This document shows, piece by piece, positions 10-62,077 of a stretch of DNA of 64,000 nt. The notes under the pieces were generated by a model. That model was not told where the DNA came from. It made no database searches and saw only the letters and a program-made list of their open reading frames with translations. This stretch comes from a virus: positions 21,152 to 85,151 of the IMG/VR virus record IMGVR_UViG_3300038417_000475; one strand, written 5' to 3'. The number at the start of each line of letters is the position of its first letter. Positions within the stretch are counted from its first letter, which is position 1. Made by a program: the position numbers and the translations under genes.

Positions 10-228
10 GTGGCCGACAGGGAGCAAACCTGCACTCACTGTCAGGGAACGATTGAACCTGCGTGCTCAGAGGAAACTCTGCCAGAAGATGCACGCCTGT
101 GTAGGGCAGGGTACGTCTGGACAAGGCCAGAAGATCAGAAGGTGATGGATCAGTGTCCTGACTGCCAGTTCTTCCCTGAGAACTGTGCGGAGAGCAAACA
201 GACACCCTGCCAGTATTGGGCAACGTAA
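10..228 (+). CDS. Small Cys-rich protein, possibly 5'-truncated
   Basis: A 72-residue protein with four CxxC-like or Cys pairs (CTHC near the start, CPDC in the middle, two more Cys near the end), so probably a zinc-binding mini-protein. The start used is GTG, but the frame stays open to the first base of the window, so the true start may lie outside. It overlaps the longest frame of the next gene but not the preferred Ku start. No family recognised. Confidence 0.5.
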   Translation: MADREQTCTHCQGTIEPACSEETLPEDARLCRAGYVWTRPEDQKVMDQCPDCQFFPENCAESKQTPCQYWAT

Positions 229-284
229 GCAACCTCATGTCGAGTGACAGAGGAATAGATAGAGAAGGAGCAGGAGTTGAGAGA

Positions 285-1190
285 ATGAAAGCATGGCGAA
301 ACACGGCAATCGTTATGGGAGTTATGACCATCCCTGTGAAGCTGTACTCTGCTACAAGCGATCACGATATGGAGCGGCATAATCTCCACGCCAAAGACGG
401 CGGAAGGGCAAAGCAGGGAAGCAAATTCTGTAGCAAGTGCAAGGCCGATTTAGATGATACGAACACGGTGAAGGGCTACGAGGTCGGCAAGGATAGAGAT
501 ATCATCCTGACTCCGCAGGAGCTTGCCACCATCAGCCTCAAGTCGGCCAAGGCAGTTGAGATCGTGGAGTTTACCGCCAGTGACAAGGTTGACCCACGGA
601 TGCCTGAGAATCACTACTTCGTTGCACCAGAGGACATGGGGAAGAAGGGCTTCTCCATCCTGCTGGAGACGATGCAGGACACGGGGCTGTTTGCCATCGG
701 CAGGGTAGTCTTCAGTGAGACCAAGGAGACCCTTGTCCTGATGCGACCCTTCGGCCACGTCCTGATGCTGCACACGCTGGCATGGGCTGATGAGCTGAGG
801 GATGCCTCAGAGCTTACCGATACCACCGTGGCAATCTCCGACAAAGAGCGTGAGCTTGGCAAGATGCTGGTGGAAGTTATGGTCGGCGATGGTGACATTA
901 GCAAGTTCCACGACCAGTATCAGGAACAGCTCAGGGCTTTGATCGAGACGAAGGGGTTGGGCGGTGTCATCGAAGTCCAGCCAGAACGTACTGAGGAACA
1001 GGTGGCGGCTGTGGATGCAGCGGAGCAGCTCCTGGCGAGCATTGTGGCGGTACAGAAGAGTCAGAAGAGCAAGGGCACAGTTCTCCGGGCTGGCGAAGGG
1101 GAAGTCCCCACGGAGTTGGAGCCTGAGTTGTCGCCCAAGCCGAAGAAAACGGCCAAGGCGAAACGCTCTGCCAAAACAGTAGCAGCTTAG
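285..1190 (+). CDS. ku: Ku protein, bacterial NHEJ type
   Basis: Bacterial-type Ku, which binds double-strand DNA ends as a homodimer and recruits the ligase for non-homologous end joining. From ATG 285 the N-terminus (WRNTAIVMGVMTIPVKLYSA) matches the family opening of a short basic start followed by G-x-x-x-I-P-V-K-L-Y. A CSKC pair lies in the linker after it. About 301 residues is typical length. The C-terminus is rich in Lys and Pro (PKPKKTAKAKR), like the DNA-binding tails of many bacterial Ku proteins. An in-frame start at 216 would add 23 residues unlike the family, so 285 is preferred. A LigD-type ligase follows 330 bp downstream, completing the two-component system. Ku is known from a few phages but is uncommon. 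Confidence 0.93.
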   Translation: MKAWRNTAIVMGVMTIPVKLYSATSDHDMERHNLHAKDGGRAKQGSKFCSKCKADLDDTNTVKGYEVGKDRDIILTPQELATISLKSAKAVEIVEFTASDKVDPRMPENHYFVAPEDMGKKGFSILLETMQDTGLFAIGRVVFSETKETLVLMRPFGHVLMLHTLAWADELRDASELTDTTVAISDKERELGKMLVEVMVGDGDISKFHDQYQEQLRALIETKGLGGVIEVQPERTEEQVAAVDAAEQLLASIVAVQKSQKSKGTVLRAGEGEVPTELEPELSPKPKKTAKAKRSAKTVAA

Positions 1191-1350
1191 TGAGACTAGA
1201 CTGCGTTCGGATTGAGCCTAGCCCTTTGCGCTAGGATTGAGCCTGACCCTCTAGCCTCTCACGTCAGGGCGAGTCCGTAGACACCGTGTCATTGACACAG
1301 ATGCCAGCGGAACGCCCTGCGGTGAGCGACTAGCTCGAAAGGGGGTCTAT
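1191..1350 (+). other. Noncoding gap between ku and the ligase unit
   Basis: A 160-bp spacer without a convincing gene. It contains the 10-bp phrase GGATTGAGCC twice (near 1209 and 1232) and a small perfect hairpin GTGTC-ATT-GACAC at about 1287-1299. A purine-rich RBS (AAAGGGGG) precedes the ATG at 1351. It is probably a structured leader; no known riboswitch class was recognised. Confidence 0.35.
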
Positions 1351-1524
1351 ATGGAAATACCTGTCGTAGTGCAGGCTTCCAGTCTCGCCTATCCTCTGGA
1401 AGAGGAAGACTTCTTTGCGGAAGAGCGACTCCGCAAGGAGATGGGAAATCAGGAAGCCCGCCATCTGGATGATGGCGATGAGTGGCCTTGCCAGCATCTT
1501 TCTACCAATGGGGGTGGGCTATGA
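1351..1524 (+). CDS. Small acidic protein upstream of the ligase
   Basis: A 57-residue frame from ATG 1351, preceded by a clear AAAGGGGG ribosome site, ending in TGA at 1522-1524. It is acidic (LEEEDFFAEER) with a single Cys. Its stop overlaps the ATG of the ligase at 1521 as ATGA, so it is probably translationally coupled to the ligase. No family recognised. Confidence 0.6.
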   Translation: MEIPVVVQASSLAYPLEEEDFFAEERLRKEMGNQEARHLDDGDEWPCQHLSTNGGGL

Positions 1525-2423
1525 ATCTACCGATGAAGTGCCAGAAGCAGAAGAAACCCTTCAGCTCCAGCCGACATCTCTTTGAGCCAAAGGTGGACGG
1601 TTGGCGGTTGAGGATGGTCACCAAGACAGAGTATGGTCAGGTCGAGCTGGATGGAGAGGTGGCTGTCCTGGATGCCCAGGGCGTGCCCCGCCTTCACCTT
1701 GTCCAGCAAAGAGGACAGGACGATCCCCTGTTTCTCAAGACAGCCATGCGGGATTACCCCGCCCTGTTCTTTGGGTTCGATATCCTTCAGTGTGGGGGCA
1801 GGGGTGATCTACACCTGACTCCCCTCAAGACTCGAAAACGGATACTGACGGATATTTGGCCTGCTCTGAGGAAGAACGGCGTTCATCTCTACAGCAAGAA
1901 CGGGCATGATATAACAGGCCGCTTCCCTGAGCTGGGCGATCCCCGGAATTGCAAGCTCCTGTCCTGGGTTGAGGGAGATGGGGAAGCACTTTTCGAGAAA
2001 CTCTGTCTTGCTGGTTGGGAAGGCGTGGTGGGCAAAGAGCTGGAGTCGCCATACCTCTACGACAGCAGGACGAAGCTCTGGATCGCCTCCAAGAGGCCGA
2101 AGATCGAGGGGGATTTCGTCATCTGCGGTGCTACCCTGGGCAAGGGAAACCGTGAGGGCTTGGTCGGCTCCCTGATACTCGGAGAGCCAACGTCTAGGGG
2201 ACTGATCTACATGGGAGAGGCCGGCACAGGACTCGGCTTCGCCGATCTGCGAAGGTTGACCGAGAAGCTGTCCCGCAAGGATGCCTGTCCCTTTACTGAC
2301 AGGCCGAAGATCGACGGATTCTGGTTCTGGTCTGCGCCCACAGTCAAGGTGGAGATCGCCTATGTCGAGCGCACCAAGGATAACAAGCTGCGGGAGCCGG
2401 TGATAAAGCGCCCGCCGATGTGA
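1521..2423 (+). CDS. ATP-dependent DNA ligase, LigD ligase-domain type
   Basis: ATP-dependent DNA ligase that would seal ends held by Ku. Nucleotidyltransferase motifs are visible in order: motif I KVDGWR (adenylated Lys), motif III ELDGEV, IIIa FGFDIL, motif IV EGVVGKE, and motif V with Lys in WIASKRPK. An OB-fold-like C-terminal part follows (VGSLILGE onwards). About 300 residues fits a stand-alone LigD ligase domain with no primase or phosphoesterase domain. ATG 1521 is chosen because it overlaps the stop of the preceding small gene; an in-frame ATG at 1482 would extend through that gene. Confidence 0.92.
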   Translation: MNLPMKCQKQKKPFSSSRHLFEPKVDGWRLRMVTKTEYGQVELDGEVAVLDAQGVPRLHLVQQRGQDDPLFLKTAMRDYPALFFGFDILQCGGRGDLHLTPLKTRKRILTDIWPALRKNGVHLYSKNGHDITGRFPELGDPRNCKLLSWVEGDGEALFEKLCLAGWEGVVGKELESPYLYDSRTKLWIASKRPKIEGDFVICGATLGKGNREGLVGSLILGEPTSRGLIYMGEAGTGLGFADLRRLTEKLSRKDACPFTDRPKIDGFWFWSAPTVKVEIAYVERTKDNKLREPVIKRPPM

Positions 2424-3266: not shown

Positions 3267-4514
3267 ATGAAGGCAACCCTGAAAACTGCTGACCTGTTGG
3301 GCGTGCTCAACAGAGTCAAGCCCTGCTTAGGGAAACGGGAACCCTATGCAGCGTACCACCTGGCCACCGCTGACGGTGTAGTGCTGGTCATCGGCAACGG
3401 CGGCGATTCTGCCCTGATGGGTAAGATCAAGGCAACCATAACCAGCAAGGGTGAGACCACCCTGCCTCCGGGAGCAGTGGAGTTCCTGAAGGCACAAGCC
3501 TCTGCCACTGTGACCGTCTCCACCGTACACAAGACGGAAGAGAAGAAGGTCATGGGCCAGGGGCATTGGGAGAATGGTCACTACGTGCAGGGAGAAGAGG
3601 CGCTTCAGACAGTCCACACCTGGAAAGTGAATCTGGAAGCCGGCAACTCCCGCATCTCCTACCCTGCGGCAGATCCCAAGGATATCCCGGAGCTGCCCAT
3701 GCCCCTCAAGACGCTGCCCAAGCTGGAGCAGCCTCTAGTGCTGAAGGACTTCGGCGCTGCGCTCTCTGAGGTGTCCTATGCCGTAGCAGCCAAGAATGAC
3801 TCACGGCCTATCCTGACCTGCGTTGCTATGGCGCCTGATGCCAAGGGTGTGGCTCTGATAGCCAGCGATGGATTCCGTCTGGCCAAGACATCCATCAAGG
3901 GCAGTGTTCCCTCTACCTTTGCCGTCGACGGCGACCTGTTAGCTATCTTGCAGAAGTTCGGGAAGACCAAGTTCTCCTGCAAGAAGGTCCAGATAGCTAA
4001 AGAGAGGGTACAGTGGGTGCTCGTCTTCGAGAGCGACGGCCTGACGGTAATGACCTGCAATGCCGGCGACTTCCCTAAGTGGGAGAAGTTCATCCCCGAG
4101 CATACCCGCAGGGCGCTCCGGGTGGACAACCTTGAGTTCAAGGATGCCATCAGGACAGCGATATCGGCTGTCGGCTCGCAGGGCACTATCCGCCTGATCG
4201 GAAAGGGCAAGACACTGAGAGTGATCGGCCTCTCCGACCAGACACAGGCAGAGGTCAAGATCCCGTCCAAGGGACGGATACAGCAGGCTTATCAGGCCAA
4301 CCATCTGCTGGCTGTTCTCAGCAGAGTGGGAGAGAGGGTGGATATCCTCCATGACACGGAAGCCAAGGATGGGAAGCCGACTCCTGCCATTGTGCGGAGC
4401 AACGGCAGCACCCACCTGATGTGTGCCCGTGAGGTTGCGGAATGGACCAAGGCTGACGTCAAGGCAGAGGTTCAGGCTCCAGAGGTCGAGGATCTGGAAG
4501 AAGTTCCAGCCTAA
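3267..4514 (+). CDS. dnaN: DNA polymerase III beta sliding clamp
   Basis: Beta clamp, the ring-shaped processivity factor of replicative polymerase and a landing pad for ligase and repair enzymes. It shows the three-domain clamp pattern, including the NDSRPILTCVAM stretch (about residue 175) equivalent to the conserved T/S-R-P-I-L segment, and strands typical of domains 2 and 3 (IASDGFRLA). At 415 residues it is longer than the usual 365-380; the excess is an insertion near residues 95-120 and an acidic C-terminal tail. Good RBS AAAGGAGC before the ATG. A phage-encoded clamp close to Ku and ligase suggests a self-supplied DNA maintenance module. Confidence 0.88.
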   Translation: MKATLKTADLLGVLNRVKPCLGKREPYAAYHLATADGVVLVIGNGGDSALMGKIKATITSKGETTLPPGAVEFLKAQASATVTVSTVHKTEEKKVMGQGHWENGHYVQGEEALQTVHTWKVNLEAGNSRISYPAADPKDIPELPMPLKTLPKLEQPLVLKDFGAALSEVSYAVAAKNDSRPILTCVAMAPDAKGVALIASDGFRLAKTSIKGSVPSTFAVDGDLLAILQKFGKTKFSCKKVQIAKERVQWVLVFESDGLTVMTCNAGDFPKWEKFIPEHTRRALRVDNLEFKDAIRTAISAVGSQGTIRLIGKGKTLRVIGLSDQTQAEVKIPSKGRIQQAYQANHLLAVLSRVGERVDILHDTEAKDGKPTPAIVRSNGSTHLMCAREVAEWTKADVKAEVQAPEVEDLEEVPA

Positions 4515-29069: not shown

Positions 29070-31388
29070 TTACATTTGATTGTCGATATACGTTTTCAGA
29101 AGCGAATAATTTATAAGTCCCCAACCGTAATCATTGCTCTTGGCTGAGGCATAATCGCCATATATCGACATCGCAGCCTTGATATGCTCCGTGGTCAGGA
29201 CCTTCCCCTTTTTACGGGCATACTGGATCGCCAGGGCTGTCACGTATGCGGCATGGGGTGTGGCCATTGACGTGCCGGAAATCGCGGCAAGCTGCGGAGG
29301 TCCGTCTCCAAGCTGCATGGCTGCGATATATCCGTTGGAAGTCGAAAGGATATCCACACCCGGAGCCACCACGTCGGGCTTGATGAATCCGGCTTTCGTG
29401 GGGCCTCGAGAGGAGAAGCTGGCTATGTTTCCGTGGATATCCACAGCTCCGACAGTCAACGCATCCGGTGAACAGCCGGGGCCTCCTACAGTCATCTGGC
29501 CAGGGCCGCTGTTGCCGGCAGCGATACAACAGATGATCCCAAGTTGCGTCATGGCGGTGATGGCCTGGCATTCCGGGTCATTCAGGTAATCATCGGGTTC
29601 GTCCCCTCCCAAAGACATCGAGATGATATCGGCTTTCCAGTGCAGAGCGTTCATCAGGCCGGCCAGTATCCAGCTTGCCATCCCTACGCCGATCCCGCCG
29701 CCCAGGACTTTGAACGGACGAACCTCTGCTCCCGGAGCTCCGCCCTTGAGCAACGCTCCTCGCGCAGGCCCGGCGAGAACCTTAAAAGGCCTCCCGCCGA
29801 TGCAGGTGTTACACCAGGTATTGTGGATAAAAGCCATACCTTGTTTACCAGCAAGGTAATAAGGGCTTTCTGGGTCAAGGGTGAAATCATAGAGGAACCC
29901 CTTGAAGTCTATCTCCTCAACAGATTTGGGCAATAGGTAAGGGGCTGTTCTGTGAACTTCAGTGTAGAGAGGCCTTTTCAGCTTCAGGTAGGGAATCAAC
30001 GCCTCGGTCATCCGGGTAAATCCTGCATCTACAGCAGATACTTGGTAACAAACCTTCTTCCCTTTACCAGAAGGTTTCTGTTTTGTAAACCGTCCTCCAA
30101 AACCTAGAACACCGAACAGGCTAACGATTTGCTGTGCCAGTTGCCTTGAAGTAGTGCTAACCCTGCATCTAGCACGATCAGGGTCGAAATGACCATCACC
30201 ATCTATGATCCCGGCCAGCACTGCCAGGAGTACATTCGTGGGTTGTTTTAAGAGCCTCTCCGGTATGGTATTCTCTTTCCGTCTTAGACCTAGCGCAATG
30301 AACTCTCTTTTCAATCCTGATACCTCAATGCTTCTACTCTTCTTGCGTTTTTTGGGAGTCCAAGCACAATAATGATAGCCGAGCTGCTTCAGATATGTCT
30401 CAATAGCAGGCCCTTCGTCATGGTGTAGAGAAAGGTTCACGGCACTGTGATGGAAACAGCCCTCAGCTATGAACAGCCCTGCCAAGTAGGCCAGATCTGT
30501 ATTCACAGTCTGTACGAAAGGCAGATTGATGATCTGCTCATTCGTAGCCAGACCGTAATTTCTATGGGACTGAATCAGGTCAGAAGCTCTCACATCCCTG
30601 TATCTTTTGCACCGTGGCTCATAGATTTTGAATGGATGCCACGGAGTTGTCACAAATTCAGATGTCCCGGCTTTCACTTTTATCAATTTGCCGTCGAAAG
30701 GAATCTTGTGTACAGCCAAGACCCTTACAGGTTTTCTGAAGCCGATCGTCCATGTGGGATCTACGGGTATTTTGGTAAATCCCAGTTCACTCTGGACCTC
30801 TGGAACCTTCAAATTCTCATAGAGGTCTTGGAATCGCACAAGGCCACAGAACGTAGTATAGACAAAGGCTTCTCCCTCAATGCAACCATGGCCGACCTCA
30901 TCGAACATAAAAGGCTGGCCGGGTACCGATGATTTACCATGTCCGAAGTATCCCTGGACCGCGAAATCCAAGGCTGTACCGGTATCGAGCACTGCAACTT
31001 TTACACCTTTGCCGGTGATACCGTCCGCGGCAGCTACGTCCGCTCCCACCATCTGCCCGCTCACCGATGTCGGGATCCTCTCGTGCGAGGAGTCGGAGGC
31101 GGCATAAGCCATGGCTTTCGCCGGCCCCGTGATGGGGTTGGAGAGGAAGAGGTTGATGAACTTGGAAAACTTCTGATCTACCGGCATGGTGATGCGGATG
31201 GCCCGTATCTGCTCCGGTTTCACGTTGAGCACATAAGGCACAGCTTCTATCGCCGCTACCTGGTTAGGCTGGATATCCACCTTCACAAAATTGAAATCGA
31301 GAGGAGCAGGGAATATACCCATCTTGGTCAGAGAAATGTTGACCTCGGCAAGATGAATAGGGTCTACCTGGACAAGGTATTTAGCCAT
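29070..31388 (-). CDS. Subtilisin-like serine protease with intein
   Basis: A 772-residue precursor of an S8 subtilase. Catalytic Asp135 in VAVLDTG, His167 in EVGHG, Asn626 in AAGNSGPG (oxyanion hole) and Ser707 in GTSMATPH. An N-terminal inhibitor-like domain (about 1-70, strand-rich, VNISL, VPYVLNV) may be a propeptide. A 355-residue intein splits the His motif between Gly168 and Thr524. Excision would give a 417-residue protease with an intact GHGT motif. No signal peptide, so it may act inside the cell or on virion proteins (a maturation protease). Promoter not seen. Confidence 0.9.
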   Translation of the reverse strand: MAKYLVQVDPIHLAEVNISLTKMGIFPAPLDFNFVKVDIQPNQVAAIEAVPYVLNVKPEQIRAIRITMPVDQKFSKFINLFLSNPITGPAKAMAYAASDSSHERIPTSVSGQMVGADVAAADGITGKGVKVAVLDTGTALDFAVQGYFGHGKSSVPGQPFMFDEVGHGCIEGEAFVYTTFCGLVRFQDLYENLKVPEVQSELGFTKIPVDPTWTIGFRKPVRVLAVHKIPFDGKLIKVKAGTSEFVTTPWHPFKIYEPRCKRYRDVRASDLIQSHRNYGLATNEQIINLPFVQTVNTDLAYLAGLFIAEGCFHHSAVNLSLHHDEGPAIETYLKQLGYHYCAWTPKKRKKSRSIEVSGLKREFIALGLRRKENTIPERLLKQPTNVLLAVLAGIIDGDGHFDPDRARCRVSTTSRQLAQQIVSLFGVLGFGGRFTKQKPSGKGKKVCYQVSAVDAGFTRMTEALIPYLKLKRPLYTEVHRTAPYLLPKSVEEIDFKGFLYDFTLDPESPYYLAGKQGMAFIHNTWCNTCIGGRPFKVLAGPARGALLKGGAPGAEVRPFKVLGGGIGVGMASWILAGLMNALHWKADIISMSLGGDEPDDYLNDPECQAITAMTQLGIICCIAAGNSGPGQMTVGGPGCSPDALTVGAVDIHGNIASFSSRGPTKAGFIKPDVVAPGVDILSTSNGYIAAMQLGDGPPQLAAISGTSMATPHAAYVTALAIQYARKKGKVLTTEHIKAAMSIYGDYASAKSNDYGWGLINYSLLKTYIDNQM
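29820..30884 (-). other. LAGLIDADG intein in the subtilase active site
   Basis: Residues 169-523 of the protease precursor. N-terminal Cys169 (CIEGEAFVYT), block-B-like TTPWH around 246-251, two LAGLIDADG motifs (LAGLFIAEG at 302-310 and LAGIIDGDG at 391-399), C-terminal GMAFIHN ending in His-Asn523, and +1 Thr. All hallmarks needed for splicing and homing are visible. It is inserted between the Gly and Thr of the catalytic HGT. Confidence 0.9.
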
Positions 31389-35934: not shown

Positions 35935-37083
35935 TCAAGCCCAGTAGAGCAAAATTCCATACGTTTTGAAGCCGGCGCCCATTGTGAGCACCAGGCCCCA
36001 GTCGCCCGGCTGGGCCTGCTCTTTCGCCAGGCGCCCGATTGAAGCAATGGTAGCAGAACTCTGGTTACCCTGCTGCCTCAGGATTTGCCTCGAGTAAGCC
36101 AGCTTCTCCTCCGGGATCTTCAGGCGATCGCGGATATTGTCCAGGACTTTGACCCCGCCCGGGTGAATAATAAGGTGTTTGATGTCGCGCAGCGTCATCC
36201 CCGGGACCTGTTCCAGGATTCTGTTTACCACCCTCTCGACCAGCACAGGTGCCACCTTCGGCACATCCTTGTCCAGCTTCACCTTCAGCCGGCCGTCCAC
36301 CCAGTCAAAGCCAAGATAGTCAATATAGCGGCGGTCGAACTCTTCGGCAAAAGCCCAGATCCAGGGGTGCTTCGGGTTGTCATCCTGCCCGATCAAACAG
36401 GCACAGGCCCCGTCGCTGAAAATGGCATTGGCCACCGTATTCTCCAGGTCTTTCTCCGGAGCCGGGTAGAACGTGGCGGTGCAGATCTCCGCCGTTATTA
36501 CCAGCGCGGGGTAGCCCGTCTGCATGAAATGGTCATGGGCCCTGCGGATAGCCGGAGCTCCGCCAACGCACCCGCCTCCGATCATATCGGTATGCTCAAT
36601 ATCAGAGGGCAGCTTCAGCAGCATCGAATAAAAGTAACTCAGAGAGGGGCAGAGCAGCCGGGGTTGCGTTGTGGTAGCAAAGGTGATTGAGCCGATGTCC
36701 TTACGGATCTCTAAACCTTCGATGCACTGTAAGGCGGCTTCCAGCCCCAGGTTTACAGCACCCGCCTCATATTCCTGGCACATCTGCTCAAAGGTCATAT
36801 TACGCAGCTTGCTGGGATGAATCCAGCACGGCCGCCGGTCGATCCCGGAATTCTTGAAGATATTCCAGACCCGTTGAGACGTGTAGCCCAGGGCATCATA
36901 TGCTTCCTTCTGGGTCACAAATGTCTTGGGGACTGCGGTACCCAGTGAGATGATCTTGGCCCTCTTCGGCTTCCGATAATAGGCCGCCGAGCGTTGGGGG
37001 GCTGCCTCTTCCTGCCGTTTAATAGTTTCAGGAGTCCGGGTATCCGGAAAGCCGTTCAGGTCTGGTCTGGTTGCAATCATCAT
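35935..37083 (-). CDS. Type III polyketide synthase (chalcone-synthase-like)
   Basis: 382 residues, the usual size of a thiolase-fold type III PKS or related KAS III. Catalytic triad visible: Cys172 in GGGCVGG, His307 in IIHPGG, Asn340 in GNQSS; the C-terminal G-A-G-F loop follows. His-Pro-Gly-Gly is the chalcone-synthase form. Such enzymes condense an acyl-CoA with malonyl-CoA to give alkyl pyrones, resorcinols or similar. The 42-residue N-terminal extension is basic and probably disordered. Surrounded by prenyl-lipid genes. Confidence 0.9.
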   Translation of the reverse strand: MMIATRPDLNGFPDTRTPETIKRQEEAAPQRSAAYYRKPKRAKIISLGTAVPKTFVTQKEAYDALGYTSQRVWNIFKNSGIDRRPCWIHPSKLRNMTFEQMCQEYEAGAVNLGLEAALQCIEGLEIRKDIGSITFATTTQPRLLCPSLSYFYSMLLKLPSDIEHTDMIGGGCVGGAPAIRRAHDHFMQTGYPALVITAEICTATFYPAPEKDLENTVANAIFSDGACACLIGQDDNPKHPWIWAFAEEFDRRYIDYLGFDWVDGRLKVKLDKDVPKVAPVLVERVVNRILEQVPGMTLRDIKHLIIHPGGVKVLDNIRDRLKIPEEKLAYSRQILRQQGNQSSATIASIGRLAKEQAQPGDWGLVLTMGAGFKTYGILLYWA

Positions 37084-48701: not shown

Positions 48702-49727
48702 TCAGTCCTCCAGCCATGAAATATCTTCATCTGTGGAGAATAGTGGGATTGGCAACCCCCACAACCTGAATGATTCCGTGCCTACCCTTATCGACTCGCT
48801 CCTCTCAGCCCCATGCTTCTTGAGCCCTTCCCAGAGCTCTCCCCTGGTCATAATCATCTTGTACTGGTCTGTGAGGTAGCGGTGGAGCTTGCTGGACTGG
48901 AACCAGCGATATCCCCGCTTTTCCACATAGCCCCGGACCAGGTCATCCGGAGACTCTGCCTCCTTAGCTGCGGCAAACCACTCCTTCACAGCAGTGAGTA
49001 TCTGATCTTCCTTCTTCGTATCGGGAGGTGTAGCGGTCTGCTTTGCATTTGCTATCAGGTTAGAGATGAAGAGGTCGAATCCTGGGGGCAGGTCCGGGAC
49101 AAAATGTAGGGACTCTCGTATCCTTCTCTTGAACTCCCTTTTGTTGTCCAGATGCTCGGTTTTGAATTGAATATCTGCCTCCCTCCCCATGCCGGACGCA
49201 TGGATAGTGTAGAGGGGTGGCTCGGTGAGACTGATGATAGGATTAGTGAAGGTCACCACCCGGGACGGGATCTCATGGCGGGCTTGGACACTGGAGACAA
49301 GCAGGCTGATCCTATCGAGCAGGGGAGCCAAGGTAGAGCCAGGGTCATAGATTTTGGGGAAGATGTCCGTCAGGGCGCTGATTACCTGCCGGCGCAGCGA
49401 GAGGTCAAGGATTGTCTCGGCATGTGTCCTGGCATGGACAGAACTCAAGGTATTGGCCATAATGTGGGAAAGGTAAGAGATCTGCACCCCGTCCGATACC
49501 TCTTTGGCCAGGGTGATCTGAGTTATCTCCTCTCCCCTGTACCTCAAGCGTAAACTCGCTTCGAAGAGTGAGCGGCACCTATCATCATGGAAGTCCTCCA
49601 TGCGAAGGATTTTGGAGACCTCATCAACGGTGTCAGGATCCATCATGAAAGCCCCGATGACCGACATCTCAGCCAGCTCGTCGTAGGGAACAGGATGGGG
49701 CCCGCTGCCATTGGACTTCCGAGCCAT
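48702..49727 (-). CDS. DnaB-N-terminal-like replication protein, no ATPase
   Basis: 341 residues. The N-terminal about 120 residues are DnaB-N-like (AEMSVIGAFMMDPDTVDEV then FHDDRCRSLFEASLRL and a TLAKEVSD-type helix), the helicase region that binds primase. No Walker A or RecA-like domain follows; instead there is a different C-terminal domain (WFQSSKLHRYLTDQYKMIM, WH-like). It resembles accessory/loader or primase-binding proteins and could recognise the iterons just downstream of it. Confidence 0.7.
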   Translation of the reverse strand: MARKSNGSGPHPVPYDELAEMSVIGAFMMDPDTVDEVSKILRMEDFHDDRCRSLFEASLRLRYRGEEITQITLAKEVSDGVQISYLSHIMANTLSSVHARTHAETILDLSLRRQVISALTDIFPKIYDPGSTLAPLLDRISLLVSSVQARHEIPSRVVTFTNPIISLTEPPLYTIHASGMGREADIQFKTEHLDNKREFKRRIRESLHFVPDLPPGFDLFISNLIANAKQTATPPDTKKEDQILTAVKEWFAAAKEAESPDDLVRGYVEKRGYRWFQSSKLHRYLTDQYKMIMTRGELWEGLKKHGAERSESIRVGTESFRLWGLPIPLFSTDEDISWLED

Positions 49728-49731
49728 TACA

Positions 49732-51225
49732 TTACTCTTCTAGGAATTTCAACGCCTCGGCCTCAACCGAGCTTTTGGCAATGTGGTCTCGCATTTTGGC
49801 GATATCGCCCTTGTTCCATTGACCTGCCTTGCCGGTTACCTCCTGGAAGAGTTTCTTGATATCTGAGTCGTTTTTACCTATATTTCGCAACGCTACCACA
49901 ATCTCTCGCTTTTCCTCAGGACTAGCTGGGGTGGTGTTTATCTGGCCAGCAGTGCCGGGTTGAAGCGCCCCATCTACCTGGGACGCCGGCGCAGTCTCTG
50001 GGGGCTTCTTCTTTTCCTCAGCCCGCCTCTTCCCCTCATCTTCAATGGCATGCTTGAGGAGTATGGTCTGGGAGAGGTCCATCTGTTTGTAGTCAGTGTG
50101 ACCGAAGAGCTGCATCATCTTGGGGAGAACGAAGGCCTCCCAACTCCCCTCGCCGAGCAGATCCTTGGCCAGCATAAAGAGGTCGATCTCCTTCAGGGGT
50201 TCACCTACTGCCCCAGCCTGTTGCCTCTTGGCAGCCTCCTCGAGTGCTGTGGCAGCCGGCCCAGGGGGATGTTGGTCTGTCGACGCAGCTCCGCCCGGTA
50301 GCCGTTTCTTCTCATCCCTTCTTGTCCTCTTGGGAGCGGTTGTTGGTGTTTTCTTCCCTTCGCTGCTTGTTGCCCCTGTTTTCGTATCCTGGAACTCTTC
50401 AACAGGCGGCTCGTCTTCATCACCGAAGCTGCCCCGAAGATCGCCGGGTACCTCTTCCTTAACAGCTTCTTCCGCTGTCTGAGCTACAGGTTGCTCAAGC
50501 AGGAATTGCCTGCTGGGGTTAGCGATTATGCGCAGCAAATCACCCAGCTTGAGTTCATTCTTCAGATGCATGATCCAGACGGTCTTTCTCTTCTGCCCGG
50601 GCGGGTTCACTTCCTGGGGCCCTATTGCTAATGTAAAAGGAATCATGGCGATCTGGCGAACGCCGGTTACCCGCTCGGCCATAATCCTCACCATAGCGAT
50701 TTGAGACTGGATGTTTATGCGTGAATGGTAGGATGTCGTCGCGACTTCATAAACGCCCAGGCCGGGCACCTCGGGCAGCATAAATTGGAGCCGCATGATA
50801 GGCCGGCACCTCTTTTTCAAGAACTGTTCGCATCTCTCCGGATTGCAGGTAAGCCCGTCTTTCCATACCCAATGGCCTTCAACGGTATTCCGGTCTGCCA
50901 TAGCGCCTGTGTCCACATCTACCTTCTGCTTGGCAATTATCCCGTCTCCGAAGCAGGTCAGCCCATAGGTCAGCCCGTAGCACCTGTAATACTGGCTCAG
51001 CCACTCAAGATCATTGTTGCTGGGGAACATAATGGGGTAGATCGCGGTGGGCTTTTCCCCATAGACCTTCCGGACTGCTTCTGGGCAGACGAGGTAATCG
51101 ACGGCTTTGGGAATGGTCGCGGTGGGATCATCTGGGAGACGGGGATTCTGGACTCTGATACCGAGGCGGATTCTATCGATGCGCTCAAGACGGACAAGGT
51201 TAGAGAAACCATCAATAGGTGACAT
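49732..51225 (-). CDS. RDF-like / phage hydrolase-metal-binding family protein
   Basis: 497 residues. The N-terminal 250 residues follow a conserved phage pattern: a DGFSNLVRLERIDRIRLGI start, PKAVDYLVCPE, WLSQYYRCYGL, then a Cys-rich segment (CNPERCEQFLKKRC) and LPGLGVYEV...INIQSQI. Members are annotated as recombination directionality factor-like. A long disordered Pro/Glu/Gln-rich linker and a C-terminal domain follow. An integrase is encoded in the window, so an RDF role is plausible; a DNA-annealing role is an alternative. Confidence 0.5.
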   Translation of the reverse strand: MSPIDGFSNLVRLERIDRIRLGIRVQNPRLPDDPTATIPKAVDYLVCPEAVRKVYGEKPTAIYPIMFPSNNDLEWLSQYYRCYGLTYGLTCFGDGIIAKQKVDVDTGAMADRNTVEGHWVWKDGLTCNPERCEQFLKKRCRPIMRLQFMLPEVPGLGVYEVATTSYHSRINIQSQIAMVRIMAERVTGVRQIAMIPFTLAIGPQEVNPPGQKRKTVWIMHLKNELKLGDLLRIIANPSRQFLLEQPVAQTAEEAVKEEVPGDLRGSFGDEDEPPVEEFQDTKTGATSSEGKKTPTTAPKRTRRDEKKRLPGGAASTDQHPPGPAATALEEAAKRQQAGAVGEPLKEIDLFMLAKDLLGEGSWEAFVLPKMMQLFGHTDYKQMDLSQTILLKHAIEDEGKRRAEEKKKPPETAPASQVDGALQPGTAGQINTTPASPEEKREIVVALRNIGKNDSDIKKLFQEVTGKAGQWNKGDIAKMRDHIAKSSVEAEALKFLEE

Positions 51226-51255
51226 AGGACCTTCCCCCCTTATTGAAGATTTGGA

Positions 51256-51504
51256 TTATGAAGTTGGAGCTTCAACAGGCTCCGCTTGCGCCGGCTCCCA
51301 GCCCTCACCCTCCGACAGTTTAAGGGCGGCGATGGTGAGCTCGAGGCTTTCGATGGCCTTCTCTTTGGTTGTGCCCGGTTTAATCATAATGGCGGCAAGC
51401 GGACCAACGACGAGATTTAGTTCACCATGGAAACCCTGGGCGATGAGCTGTCTGGGGAAATAGCCGGTTCCTGCGATTTTGTTGACGGTGATTTTGAACA
51501 GCAC
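51256..51504 (-). CDS. 82-aa protein, leaderless
   Basis: GTG 51504, one or two bases after the predicted transcription start of the promoter at 51513-51543. Strand-helix-strand head (KITVNKIAGTGYFPRQLIA) and Glu-rich tail. First gene of the right minus-strand unit. No family recognised. Confidence 0.55.
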   Translation of the reverse strand: MLFKITVNKIAGTGYFPRQLIAQGFHGELNLVVGPLAAIMIKPGTTKEKAIESLELTIAALKLSEGEGWEPAQAEPVEAPTS

Positions 51505-51512
51505 AAGTCGCT

Positions 51513-51543
51513 ATTATACCACCCCATCATTTGGTGCTGTCAA
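51513..51543 (-). promoter_or_regulatory. Promoter of the right minus-strand unit
   Basis: TTGACA (51538-51543), 19-bp spacer, TATAAT (51513-51518). Predicted start about 51506, next to the GTG at 51504. Confidence 0.75.
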
Positions 51544-51565
51544 TAGATATCGTATCAAAAGGCTA

Positions 51566-51595
51566 TTGACAAACTATGATAATTATGCCTACAAT
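51566..51595 (+). promoter_or_regulatory. Promoter of the pentamer-leader transcript
   Basis: TTGACA (51566-51571), 18-bp spacer, TACAAT (51590-51595). Predicted start about 51602, so the mRNA leader to the ATG at 51710 contains the first pentamer block. CAATAG/CTATTG inverted copies flank the -35. Confidence 0.7.
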
Positions 51596-51605
51596 AGCAA
51601 AGTTT

Positions 51606-51690
51606 TGGGTCGGGTGGGGTATGGCTAGGTGCGGTGTGGGCGGCTGGGCATGGTTTGGTTTGGCATGGTGAGGTAAGGTAAGGAATTTCA
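51606..51690 (+). repeat. Pentamer block in a 5' leader
   Basis: About fifteen consecutive degenerate pentamers of the form NGGYN, ending AGGTAAGGTAAGGAATTTC, in the leader of the gene at 51710. The 5-nt phase holds with two slips. Same design as the array at 52291-52870. Confidence 0.8.
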
Positions 51691-51709
51691 CAATAAAGGG
51701 GGGTTAAAC

Positions 51710-52285
51710 ATGGAATTGAAGTTGACACTCAAGGGTCTGGCGCCGGGGCTTTTAATGAATAGTCCAACGGCAATGGTTCCGACGCCCACTTCTGCAAAAG
51801 GGAAACCCAAGCTGTCAGGTCCGGAGGATCAAGCTAAGGAAAGACTGTACATCATGCCTGACAAAAAAACGCTCTATGTTCCTGCAGCGGCGGTCAGGGC
51901 AAGTATTCTGGCAGCGGGCAGGGGCTATACTGTGAAGGGGCCGTCAGGCCGGCGCGGATCTGCGGGGGTTACACTGGCCGCCTCGATTCTCCTTGGAGAG
52001 CCGAATTTCCCTCTCCTGAACGAGAAAGGCAAGCCTCTGACGATAAAGGATTACACGGTGGATGCCCGAAGAGTGGTGGTTCAACGGTCCGGAATTATTA
52101 GAGGAAGGCCGTTGATATTTCCCTGGATGCTAGAGTGCGTGTTTCCTTATTTCGCCAATCTTGAGCAGGAGACCATAGAGGCTATGGTCAAGGATGCTGG
52201 CTCTATCGCCGGGCTTTTGGATTTCCGCCCGCAAAAATCCGGTTGGTTCGGACGTTTTGAACTTGTCGAGATGAAGATTGAATGA
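51710..52285 (+). CDS. Conserved hypothetical protein, 191 aa
   Basis: A beta-rich protein (LKLTLKGLAPGLLMNSPTAM, ERLYIMPDKKTLYVPAAAVR, RRVVVQRSGIIRGRPLIF) of a type seen in other phage- and plasmid-like elements; the run of Y-V-P-A-x-A-x-R-x-S and R-R-V-V-V-Q is characteristic. Weak resemblance to RAMP-type RNA-binding folds. Flanked on both sides by the NGGYN pentamer repeats, so it could bind them. Confidence 0.6.
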   Translation: MELKLTLKGLAPGLLMNSPTAMVPTPTSAKGKPKLSGPEDQAKERLYIMPDKKTLYVPAAAVRASILAAGRGYTVKGPSGRRGSAGVTLAASILLGEPNFPLLNEKGKPLTIKDYTVDARRVVVQRSGIIRGRPLIFPWMLECVFPYFANLEQETIEAMVKDAGSIAGLLDFRPQKSGWFGRFELVEMKIE

Positions 52286-52290
52286 TATCC

Positions 52291-52870
52291 AGGCGAGGTT
52301 GGGTGCGGTAAGGTGAGGCGCGGTAAGGCAAGGTGAGGATTTCATTGATCTTCGGTGGGGTGAGGTCTGGTGAGGCTAGGTTAGGTGCGGCGAGCTGTGG
52401 CGTGGTAAGGTTTGGTGAGGAATTTCATTGACCCAGAGTTGCGGTGAGGCCTGGTAGGGTGTGGCCCGGTAGAGCTCGGTACGGTGTGGTGGGGTAAGGT
52501 GAGGAATTCATTCTGGTATAGGTGAAGGCTAGGTACGGTCGCGTTGGGTGTGGGGTTAGGTAAGGAATCTTGAGACTTCGGTGTGGTTCGGTGAGGCCAG
52601 GCATGGCGAAGTTTGGTTGGGTCAGGTAAGGTGAGGATTTCATTGACCTGTGGTCGGGTCTGGCCTGGTCAGGTGATGTCGGGCCTGGTGGGGTCAGGCA
52701 AGGTCTGGTGAGGATTTGCTGAATGATAGGCTCGGTCGGGTTTGGCAGGGCTAGATGAGGTGAGGTCGGGTCAGGTCCGGTACGGTGAGGTTTGGTAAGG
52801 GATTTCATCATGATTTCATTCTGGTGGCACGGTGGGGCCGGGCGAGGTTGGGTGCGGTAAGGTAAGGTCT
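52291..52870 (+). repeat. Array of NGGYN pentamers in about eight blocks
   Basis: A 580-bp noncoding array between the 51710 and 52888 genes. Degenerate pentamers with GG in fixed phase run for 8-14 units, then a linker of the type AGGAATTTCATTGA. Linkers begin at about 52336, 52418, 52502, 52563, 52634, 52711 and 52798, giving spacings of 61-87 bp. The first and last block share a 23-bp direct repeat (52292-52314 and 52841-52863). The + strand is strongly G-rich and T-rich. Confidence 0.85.
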
Positions 52871-52887
52871 AATTTAAGGGGGTGTTT

Positions 52888-53577
52888 ATGCAGCAGATGG
52901 TATCGGTGGCCAGGCTAGTCGAAGATTTCGACATTTATCCGCGAACGCAGGTCGATGATTACAATGTGGCTGCCATCGCGGAGGCGCTCAGGGCGGGGAA
53001 CCAGGTGCCCCCTCTGAAAGTCGGGCAGGTCGCCGGGCACAAGACAAGAACGTTTCTCATTGTGGATGGTGTCCACCGGAGCCGGGCATACCGCAGAGTT
53101 TTCGGAGATAATGTCAAGGTTCCAGTGGTCACCCAGGTCTATAAGGACAAGAATCAGATGATACTCGAAGCGGCTGAGGCCAACTCTCACCATGGCAGGA
53201 TCCTCACCATGCAGGACAAGACCAAGTGTGTCATCATGCTGGAGAAAGCCAAATACCCGATCGCCCAGATTTCGAAGGCCCTGGGCTTAACGGCAGAGAA
53301 AATCGCTTTATTAAAGGCGGAGAGAACAGCCACCCGGGGCGGGCAATCCGTGGCGTTGAAACTGTCCACAAGCCACTTGGCCGGCATGGACCTGACGAAG
53401 GAACAGATGAGATATCAGGAGGCAGCCGGAGGCCTCCACCAGAGCTTCTATGTCAACCAGGTCATTTCAATGTTGGAGGCGGATGCGGTCGATTGGGATA
53501 ATGAAAAGCTGGTGGCTCTTCTGGGCAAGCTCGCACAGCTGCTCAGCGAGAAAGAGAAGCTGTTATCACCAGCATGA
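52888..53577 (+). CDS. ParB-like nuclease-domain protein
   Basis: 229 residues from ATG 52888 (RBS AAGGGGG). ParB-N pattern: VEDFDIYPRTQVDDYNVAAI, then VDGVHRSRAYR (G-x-H-R motif) and a helix-turn-helix near residues 120-145 (QISKALGLTAEKIALLKAE). Could bind a centromere-like array or regulate; the pentamer array lies immediately upstream. No ParA next to it; the Mrp-like ATPase at 40-41 kb is the nearest candidate. Confidence 0.75.
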   Translation: MQQMVSVARLVEDFDIYPRTQVDDYNVAAIAEALRAGNQVPPLKVGQVAGHKTRTFLIVDGVHRSRAYRRVFGDNVKVPVVTQVYKDKNQMILEAAEANSHHGRILTMQDKTKCVIMLEKAKYPIAQISKALGLTAEKIALLKAERTATRGGQSVALKLSTSHLAGMDLTKEQMRYQEAAGGLHQSFYVNQVISMLEADAVDWDNEKLVALLGKLAQLLSEKEKLLSPA

Positions 53578-53587
53578 GGAGAAGAAT

Positions 53588-53788
53588 ATGACGAACTGGA
53601 TTCTCGGGCTGCTGGGTCTGCATACTTGTAGGCAGTGTGCCCGATATCACCTGCTCAATACTGTCTCCTGGCCGGCCCAGCAAGGTATTGTCTACGGCAC
53701 ACGGCCAGTGGATGTCACAGCCCTTACCTGCGACGGGAAGATCGTCGACCCCTCGACAGTGAAACGCTGCCGGAGCTTCAAGAAATGA
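53588..53788 (+). CDS. Cys-rich protein, 66 aa
   Basis: From ATG 53588 (RBS GAGGAG). Short N-terminal hydrophobic start, CRQC near 14-17 and later CDG and a final Cys, consistent with metal binding. Stop overlaps the next ATG. Confidence 0.55.
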   Translation: MTNWILGLLGLHTCRQCARYHLLNTVSWPAQQGIVYGTRPVDVTALTCDGKIVDPSTVKRCRSFKK

Positions 53789-53895
53789 CGGGGAACGACA
53801 AGATGAAACGCTTTCTGCTGGCCGCCATCGTGGTAGTAACGACATTGGCAGCCACCTTCGGGATTCTGGTTCTCTTCTGGCGGCTTGTGCCATGA
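53785..53895 (+). CDS. 36-aa single-pass membrane protein
   Basis: MTGNDKMKRFLLA then a single TM helix (IVVVTTLAATFGILVLFW). ATG 53785 overlaps the preceding stop. Followed by a second small TM protein, so the pair may form a membrane complex such as a holin or exclusion factor. Confidence 0.5.
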   Translation: MTGNDKMKRFLLAAIVVVTTLAATFGILVLFWRLVP

Positions 53896-54035
53896 TGAAG
53901 AAGCAGTTGAAGCTCTCCGACAACGCCAAGCACTGGGCCAAGGCCACCCTGCTGGCTCTTCTCGCCATGGCCCTCATCTTCGTTATCTTTAGCATCATCT
54001 ACTTCTTTGCTCCAGGCCAATCTTCCCCCGGATGA
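53892..54035 (+). CDS. 47-aa single-pass membrane protein
   Basis: Basic N-terminus (MMKKQLKLSDNAKHWAK) then a TM helix (ATLLALLAMALIFVIFSII). ATG 53892 overlaps the previous stop. Located immediately before the integrase gene. Confidence 0.5.
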   Translation: MMKKQLKLSDNAKHWAKATLLALLAMALIFVIFSIIYFFAPGQSSPG

Positions 54036-54050
54036 AAGGATAACATTATC

Positions 54051-54944
54051 ATGAATGACTATCTCCAGAAGCTCTACGACCACTATGAGAGCCGGCTGGC
54101 CTCCAAGGGCTACAATCGAACCCAATACCTGAAATGGGTGCAAGCCTTCCTGGAGTACTGCGAGGGCAGTGACTTCAAAACCGAAGCTAATTTCCAGGAT
54201 GAGGATGCGGTCCGCGCGAAGATTCAGGCCTATTTCATCAAGCTCAAGAGGGGCTACGGTGATGGCTCCCTGGGAACGATCTGGTCCATCCTGCGGGCCT
54301 TCTTCAACCGCAATCACCTCGAATGGCCTTTCGGCAAAGGGGAAGCCCCCTCACAGGCTGAAGACAAGAAACAGCACCCTGCCCTCGACCCTGGCCTGGT
54401 GAATGAGATCATCCTGGCAGTCAGACAAAAGGGCAGCCCGGAAGAGCAGGCTTTTCTGGCCTTGAGCTCTACCTATGGACTCCGCCGCGGAGAGCTTCTG
54501 GCCCTCACTCCTGAGGAATTCAAAATCAAGGACCGTACTATATATGTAGCGACCCTGAAACATGGGCGCGCCCGCAGCCATCTCATTCCTGAAGAGATAG
54601 TGCCCTATCTGGAGGGATATGACTTCAGCCGGAAGATCTCCCGGAGCAGCCTGGCTATCCTGTGGTACAAGATCGAAGACAAGGCGGGGCTGGTCCATTA
54701 TCCGAGGGTGGGCTTCCACAGCATCCGGCGCACGCTGAATACTTGTCTGGAGCAGCATTTCGGTGAGGTTCAAATAAAGACCTTCCTGCGGCATAAGGGC
54801 GGCAGTGACATGACCATGGCGTACACAGCCACCAAGTTCATTACCCGGGAAGGCTCTACCAACAAGCTGGCTGCCGTCTTGAGCGACCTGGACAAGCGGG
54901 TATTTGAAGTCCATCCGTTCCTGCCGGCATGGAGGGAGACATGA
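54051..54944 (+). CDS. int: Tyrosine recombinase (integrase)
   Basis: 297 residues. Core-binding N-terminal helical domain (about 1-95), catalytic domain with Arg in STYGLRRGEL, Lys in LKHGRAR, H-x-x-R in FHSIRRTL, His in FLRHKGG and Tyr in MAYTATKF. It would catalyse site-specific integration or resolution of circular DNA. No attachment site could be identified. Confidence 0.9.
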   Translation: MNDYLQKLYDHYESRLASKGYNRTQYLKWVQAFLEYCEGSDFKTEANFQDEDAVRAKIQAYFIKLKRGYGDGSLGTIWSILRAFFNRNHLEWPFGKGEAPSQAEDKKQHPALDPGLVNEIILAVRQKGSPEEQAFLALSSTYGLRRGELLALTPEEFKIKDRTIYVATLKHGRARSHLIPEEIVPYLEGYDFSRKISRSSLAILWYKIEDKAGLVHYPRVGFHSIRRTLNTCLEQHFGEVQIKTFLRHKGGSDMTMAYTATKFITREGSTNKLAAVLSDLDKRVFEVHPFLPAWRET

Positions 54945-61330: not shown

Positions 61331-62077
61331 ATGAATGACACCAATATCGAATATGCAGAGAAGACGCTCAATCCCCTAACGGGTTGTCTCCGGCGCTGTC
61401 CATACTGCTACGGCTGGAAGCTGGCGAATGGCCGGCTGAAAAAGCTGTACCTGGCGAACAAAAGGGTCATCGCCGGGGATCCGGGCGACCCGTATGCCAT
61501 CCGCTGGTGGCCCGAAAGACTGGAGGAGATCAAGCATCTCAAGAAACCCACCAGGATCTTTCTCTGCAATATGTCGGACCTGTTCGGGCACGGTGTGCCT
61601 CCGGCGCACATTTTGACTATCCTGGATGTTGTAAGGGCTGCAAAACAACATACTTTCATCCTCTTGACTAAATGTGGCTATAACCTGGTGGAGTATTCCC
61701 CATTTCCGCCGAACTCCTGGGTCGGTATGACAGCCACCAACCGGAAGGAGTATTCCAATGCCATTCACTACTTGAATTTTGTCCAAGCCGGGGTTAAATT
61801 CATCAGCTTCGAGCCCCTCTTGGAGGAAGTCGGAGTTCTTTCAGGTGACTTCCTGTCTCACAACATCCGGTGGGCAGTCATAGGCGCCCAGACCAACCCC
61901 ACAGTCCGTCCGAGCAACAAAGCCATGCAGGAGATCCTGGTGGCAGCCAAGAGAGCGGGGGCCGCTGTCTTCTGTAAGGACAACCTAGCCCGGAAAGCCA
62001 GCGAAAGGGCAGCATTACCCATGTTATGCAGAGAGAGGCGGTGCAGTTTGATTCTAAGGCAGGAGTATCCGCTGTGA
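61331..62077 (+). CDS. DUF5131 (phage Gp37/Gp68) radical-SAM-like protein
   Basis: 248 residues. N-terminal NPLTGCLRRCPYCYG supplies the C-x3-C-x2-C Fe-S cluster, and IRWWPERLEE and LCNMSDLFG continue the pattern characteristic of phage Gp37/Gp68. The family resembles radical SAM enzymes; its reaction is not established. A second such enzyme is encoded at the window end. Confidence 0.85.
   Translation: MNDTNIEYAEKTLNPLTGCLRRCPYCYGWKLANGRLKKLYLANKRVIAGDPGDPYAIRWWPERLEEIKHLKKPTRIFLCNMSDLFGHGVPPAHILTILDVVRAAKQHTFILLTKCGYNLVEYSPFPPNSWVGMTATNRKEYSNAIHYLNFVQAGVKFISFEPLLEEVGVLSGDFLSHNIRWAVIGAQTNPTVRPSNKAMQEILVAAKRAGAAVFCKDNLARKASERAALPMLCRERRCSLILRQEYPL

Follow-up and report, generated by a model that had tools for sequence, protein, structure and literature searches.

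The cassette at 51566-53577 of the window (the whole stretch of 64,000 nucleotides that was analysed, taken from the virus record IMGVR_UViG_3300038417_000475) is very probably, at roughly 93%, a phage-borne VIPR system. VIPR (Viral Interference Programmable Repeat), the subject of a 2026 preprint, is an ancestor-like relative of CRISPR that has come to light only recently; in the preprint it is known from Escherichia phage SUSP1 and from Pseudomonas systems, of type II (PMC13142463). The components as described there are Vipr, a small RAMP protein that is mainly phage-encoded; the vrRNAs, in which 9-16 units of a conserved GGY alternating with a hypervariable NN are followed by a 3' tail; and vap, the accessory gene of VIPR loci (PMC13142463). 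According to the same account, pairing of the NN letters to double-stranded DNA leaves out one target base per unit, as was shown for SUSP1, and natural guides are aimed at competing mobile elements (PMC13142463). In the window, the block lengths, the hypervariable NN and the 3' tails agree with the vrRNA description given in the preprint (PMC13142463). The setting is that of a phage or prophage, the window being part of a virus record of 85,151 bases with an integrase nearby, and a candidate vap gene, ParB-like in kind, accompanies vipr. The components of the cassette are as follows.

51566..51595, + strand: candidate sigma-70-type promoter (TTGACA, 18 nt, TACAAT), its 3' end about 10 bases ahead of the first block
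51606..51700, + strand: predicted vrRNA 1, about 15 units with a one-base slip mid-block, tail GGAATTTCA; lies in the vipr leader
51710..52285, + strand: vipr gene, 191 aa, RAMP-fold, predicted guide-RNA binder, phrog_4652 (from profile match, AlphaFold model and fold matches)
52292..52353, + strand: predicted vrRNA 2, 9 units, tail GGATTTCATTGATCTTC (block parsing, as for vrRNAs 3, 4 and 6-8)
52354..52442, + strand: predicted vrRNA 3, 13 units, tail GGAATTTCATTGA
52443..52520, + strand: predicted vrRNA 4, 12 units, tail GGAATTCATT
52521..52579, + strand: predicted vrRNA 5, irregular with several off-phase units, tail GGAATCTTGAGACTTC (sequence reading)
52580..52651, + strand: predicted vrRNA 6, 11 units, tail GGATTTCATTGA
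52652..52728, + strand: predicted vrRNA 7, 12 units, tail GGATTTGCTGAATGA
52729..52825, + strand: predicted vrRNA 8, 14 units, tail GGGATTTCATCATGATTTCATT
52826..52870, + strand: possible vrRNA 9, 9 units without a GGATTT tail, entering the ribosome-binding site of the next gene (sequence reading)
52888..53577, + strand: candidate accessory gene (vap), ParB/Noc/KorB-fold, 229 aa (from AlphaFold model, PDB matches and adjacency to vipr)

Each unit of the array consists of GGY, most often GGT, and then two bases that vary (GGY-NN). GG phased with a period of 5 is found at 51606-52870 on the + strand only; the minus strand has a single comparable stretch, at 48776, which lies outside the array. 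Between 52290 and 52870 there are 75 GG pairs at 5-nt spacing, against 21.6 (sd 4.2, maximum 34) in 2000 dinucleotide-preserving shuffles, and the leader block (51606-51690) has 16 against a mean of 5.3 and a maximum of 12. A preliminary description of this DNA had noticed GG recurring strictly at every fifth nucleotide; this is borne out and exceeds what any shuffle produced. That description had also spoken of about nine blocks, most of them ending in a linker. Nine were counted, all on the same strand, with one 5' of the 51710 gene (51606-51681) and eight 3' of it (52292-52870). Seven are regular, with 9-14 units each, and two are irregular, namely the leader block, which has the slip, and that at 52521-52563, where the off-phase units occur. 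Variants of the tail GGA(A)TTTCATTGA close seven of the nine; the block at 52521 has its own tail (GGAATCTTGAGACTTC) instead, and the last block has none of this type. The blocks had been taken as noncoding, in keeping with their recognition here as guide-RNA-type units, but their purpose had been overlooked: following PMC13142463, the NN letters are the guide and GGY is the scaffold.

On RNA folding, five of the seven blocks folded were of normal stability and no consistent structure was found across blocks; an Rfam search gave no match. The 23-nt stretch 52292-52314 in vrRNA 2 is identical to 52841-52863 in vrRNA 9, which suggests copying or recombination among guides. The candidate promoter agrees with the consensus at 11 of 12 positions and is the sole match within 51200-54100, a match that is not significant by itself because shuffles yield 1.6 on average. 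A proposal that each long vrRNA holds exactly one broken unit was dropped, as relatives within the clade mostly have none.

The product of the 51710 gene is a Vipr with the RAMP fold. It belongs to PHROG 4652, where its function is given as unknown, and it matched no Pfam family; nor was there a match for it, or for the 52882 ORF, in a library of defence genes. When a family profile was built from 47 relatives, it matched 36pp_D, the solved chain of the SUSP1 Vipr, with E = 8.4e-29, whereas the 51710 sequence alone gives a borderline E = 0.096. The AlphaFold model has a pLDDT of 91.7, and all 50 of the structure matches listed for it are CRISPR proteins or complexes (Csm3, type III-B, type VII and Cas7-11 chains). 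The TM-scores against these chains are 0.38-0.55 by query length, moderate values of the kind that would be expected between remote relatives. It had been suggested that a filament-forming nucleic-acid-binding protein reads GG every 5 nt, and that the 51710 or the 52888 protein might be this reader. The RAMP fold and the Vipr profile match favour the first suggestion as likely and support the 51710 protein in the role; the 52888 protein appears to be a ParB-like accessory instead.

Finding related loci required a search at the level of a motif. Searches for close relatives with the single 51710 protein in viral and genome contigs returned none, a plasmid search was equally empty, and the neighbouring Gp3-like protein used as a query also returned none; an initial alignment of four sequences was too divergent for scanning. 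Homologues were found once viral contigs were scanned for DNA that could encode the motif D[FY]RPxxxGx[FY]GRF, a procedure that is blind to arrays. This gave 119 loci, all 119 of which encode Vipr relatives. Phased arrays lie near the homologue on the same strand in 86 of the 119 and on the opposite strand in none, a total of 493 kb of distant flank contained a single array, and the only periods that stand out at these loci are 5 and its double. The remaining 33 had no array at the threshold used; a relaxed form of the array was found at 13 of 35 loci lacking a parsed array, as against one on the opposite strand. The phase had been said to be under selection, a view upheld here. A lack of phased GG at homologous loci had been named as grounds for refutation; with arrays at 86 of 119 such loci, it is not lacking. 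Among homologues recognised at the protein level, the three examined (DSL-LC04, LESphi2 and mycobacteriophage Saal) have GGY/NN arrays just 5' of the gene, and the position of the blocks, before or after vipr, differs among homologous loci.

Two features of individual loci concern how arrays may vary. At L107:5590-5781 (- strand) three consecutive vrRNAs are near-identical with diverging NN letters, a pattern suggestive of array growth through tandem duplication, with the NN letters changing afterwards. Arrays of relaxed consensus lie 3' of vipr at L062, L010 and L091, where GGY units are interleaved with GCT, GTT or GGA-type units; possibly these represent a variant code.

The presence of a ParB-fold gene immediately 3' of the array raises the alternative that this is a centromere or operator, the ParB-like protein binding the 5-bp repeats (half a helical turn) as DNA and the 51710 gene being unrelated to them. 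We regard this as very unlikely, since the arrays track Vipr homologues (86 of 119) whereas the ParB-like gene is found at only 25 of 122 loci; since they are always on the vipr strand, as RNA would be, when a DNA site could face either way; and since the 51710 protein has a fold that binds guide RNA. Attenuation in the manner of TRAP (trp RNA-binding attenuation protein), in which a ring protein on GG repeats in the leader controls translation of the 51710 gene itself, would account for the one block in the vipr leader. Yet eight more blocks lie 3' of the gene, block position varies among homologous loci, and the 51710 protein has the RAMP fold and a profile match to Vipr rather than to TRAP. 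A TRAP-like reader, which had been mentioned at the outset, is on this evidence less probable still, although autoregulation, through vrRNA 1 or through Vipr on its own mRNA, is possible as a side role. Two-tier G-quadruplexes, also raised earlier, are scarcely credible and not needed as an explanation: by textbook knowledge GG tracts with 3-nt loops may form weak quadruplexes in naked RNA, but these require neither a strict 5-nt phase, nor a pyrimidine after GG, nor an adjacent RAMP gene, and both phase and gene link are kept across 86 loci.

Within the VIPR reading, the gene at 52888 (ATG; the listed ORF starts with GTG at 52882) deserves separate consideration. The AlphaFold model of its product has a pLDDT of 95.2 and its PDB matches are Noc, ParB and KorB, with E about 1e-6. 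YPR, DGxHR and NxxHG positions are conserved in the protein, and these we take to be reminiscent of the nucleotide-binding motifs of ParB, Noc and KorB. No ParA partner was identified for it. ParB-like relatives adjoin vipr on the same strand in 25 of 122 loci, and on the Vipr tree the ParB label requires 2 changes against 21.9 when shuffled; the ParB-like partner is co-inherited with one Vipr clade, apart from that of SUSP1. The Vipr of the window groups within the ParB-linked clade, where its branch is long and the support modest (82-87); the clade of SUSP1 and LESphi2 (type II), which is well supported, does not include it. DNA-binding accessory proteins are listed for three VIPR types in the preprint, the main text of which does not mention ParB (PMC13142463). 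In this clade the partner might act as a DNA clamp gated by nucleotide, which would load where the RNA-guided Vipr filament marks the DNA and spread from there. This we consider improbable rather than far-fetched; if true, one guide would silence an extended region of a competitor's genome.

A working scheme can be outlined. Judging by the layout of the locus, the promoter at 51566 would give a single transcript comprising vrRNA 1, the vipr mRNA, vrRNAs 2-9 and the ParB-like gene, which would be cut to guide RNAs of about 60-95 nt. Copies of Vipr would line each guide, every 5-nt unit being occupied by one copy that grips GGY and presents NN, as the fold and the account in PMC13142463 would have it. 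The row of NN letters would then read double-stranded DNA as NN-x-NN-x-NN, if the rule reported for SUSP1 (PMC13142463) applies, and the bound complex would repress genes belonging to rival phages or to other mobile elements. For the ParB-like protein, the probable role is to bind DNA beside the Vipr complex and to strengthen or spread its effect.

Of the nine guides, five (3, 4, 6, 7 and 8) were searched in public collections. The cores of guides 3, 4, 6 and 8 found no target in viral contigs, where matches extended past the core were no better than chance; that of guide 7 found none there among the matches listed, and that of guide 8 none in genome contigs. Nor was a target found in the virus's own genome. 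These null results are weak evidence, because one SUSP1 guide, searched as a positive control against 395 genomes of a single order, was likewise without a target. When skip lengths of 0-3 were compared with shuffled guides over the VIPR loci collected, there was no significant difference and no clear excess for a skip of 1. A guide of LESphi2 (L003:2234-2283) matches L108:9335-9363 when 1-nt skips are allowed for, all 16 letters in the first eight NN units agreeing; the site is within an ORF of another VIPR-bearing contig and the skipped bases are at codon position 3. The match would fit the skip rule as given in PMC13142463, but is not significant alone because 173 guides were tested.

The genes nearby include a tyrosine integrase and one resembling a recombination directionality factor, a pair that would fit a temperate phage. 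Elsewhere in the window, a Ku protein adjoins an ATP-dependent DNA ligase at 216-2423 (+), possibly a phage end-joining pair; Ku occurs in mycobacteriophages too. A chalcone/stilbene synthase-like protein (type III polyketide synthase; 35935-37083, -; Pfam E about 1e-17) is unexpected for a phage. At 29070-31388 (-) a single open frame joins a subtilase-family protease to a LAGLIDADG homing endonuclease domain, which is probably an intein. There are also a weak beta-clamp match at 3267-4514 and a DUF5131 protein at 61331-62077 (+; Pfam E = 5e-37).

How the cassette stands to known systems can be summarized from the more distant to the closest. TRAP likewise reads evenly spaced RNA triplets, but it has an unrelated fold and no guide function, and its triplets are GAG/UAG as against GGY here. 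The DNA-binding CTPases ParB, Noc and KorB have the same fold as the 52888 protein, which differs in being 229 aa long and in sitting within a VIPR cassette. The backbone proteins of class 1 CRISPR (Csm3/Cas7, type III, type VII) have the RAMP fold in common with the 51710 protein; they multimerize on the guide RNA and make periodic contacts with it. Their period, however, is 6 nt, compared with 5 nt and split guide letters in the window, and within the cassette no CRISPR repeats or cas genes were seen, only GGY/NN blocks. The VIPR systems of SUSP1 and Pseudomonas resemble the window in having a single RAMP protein, about 20 kD in size, in a phage genome, tailed GGY/NN blocks both 5' and 3' of its gene, and an accessory gene. 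The differences are that SUSP1 has a 146-aa gene directly 3' of vipr where the window has eight packed vrRNAs and then the ParB-like gene, and that the guides of SUSP1 have long structured tails, in contrast to the short tails here and to blocks of which most have no unusual folding. The cassette is a fresh case of a type of system described only months before, and adds to VIPR a compact locus of nine guides. It lends independent, sequence-only support to the very recent claim that viruses carry split-code RNA-guided systems related to CRISPR backbone proteins. Of all its aspects, the ParB-linked clade most deserves further attention. The link of one Vipr clade to ParB-like proteins provides a concrete hypothesis for how these accessory proteins act.
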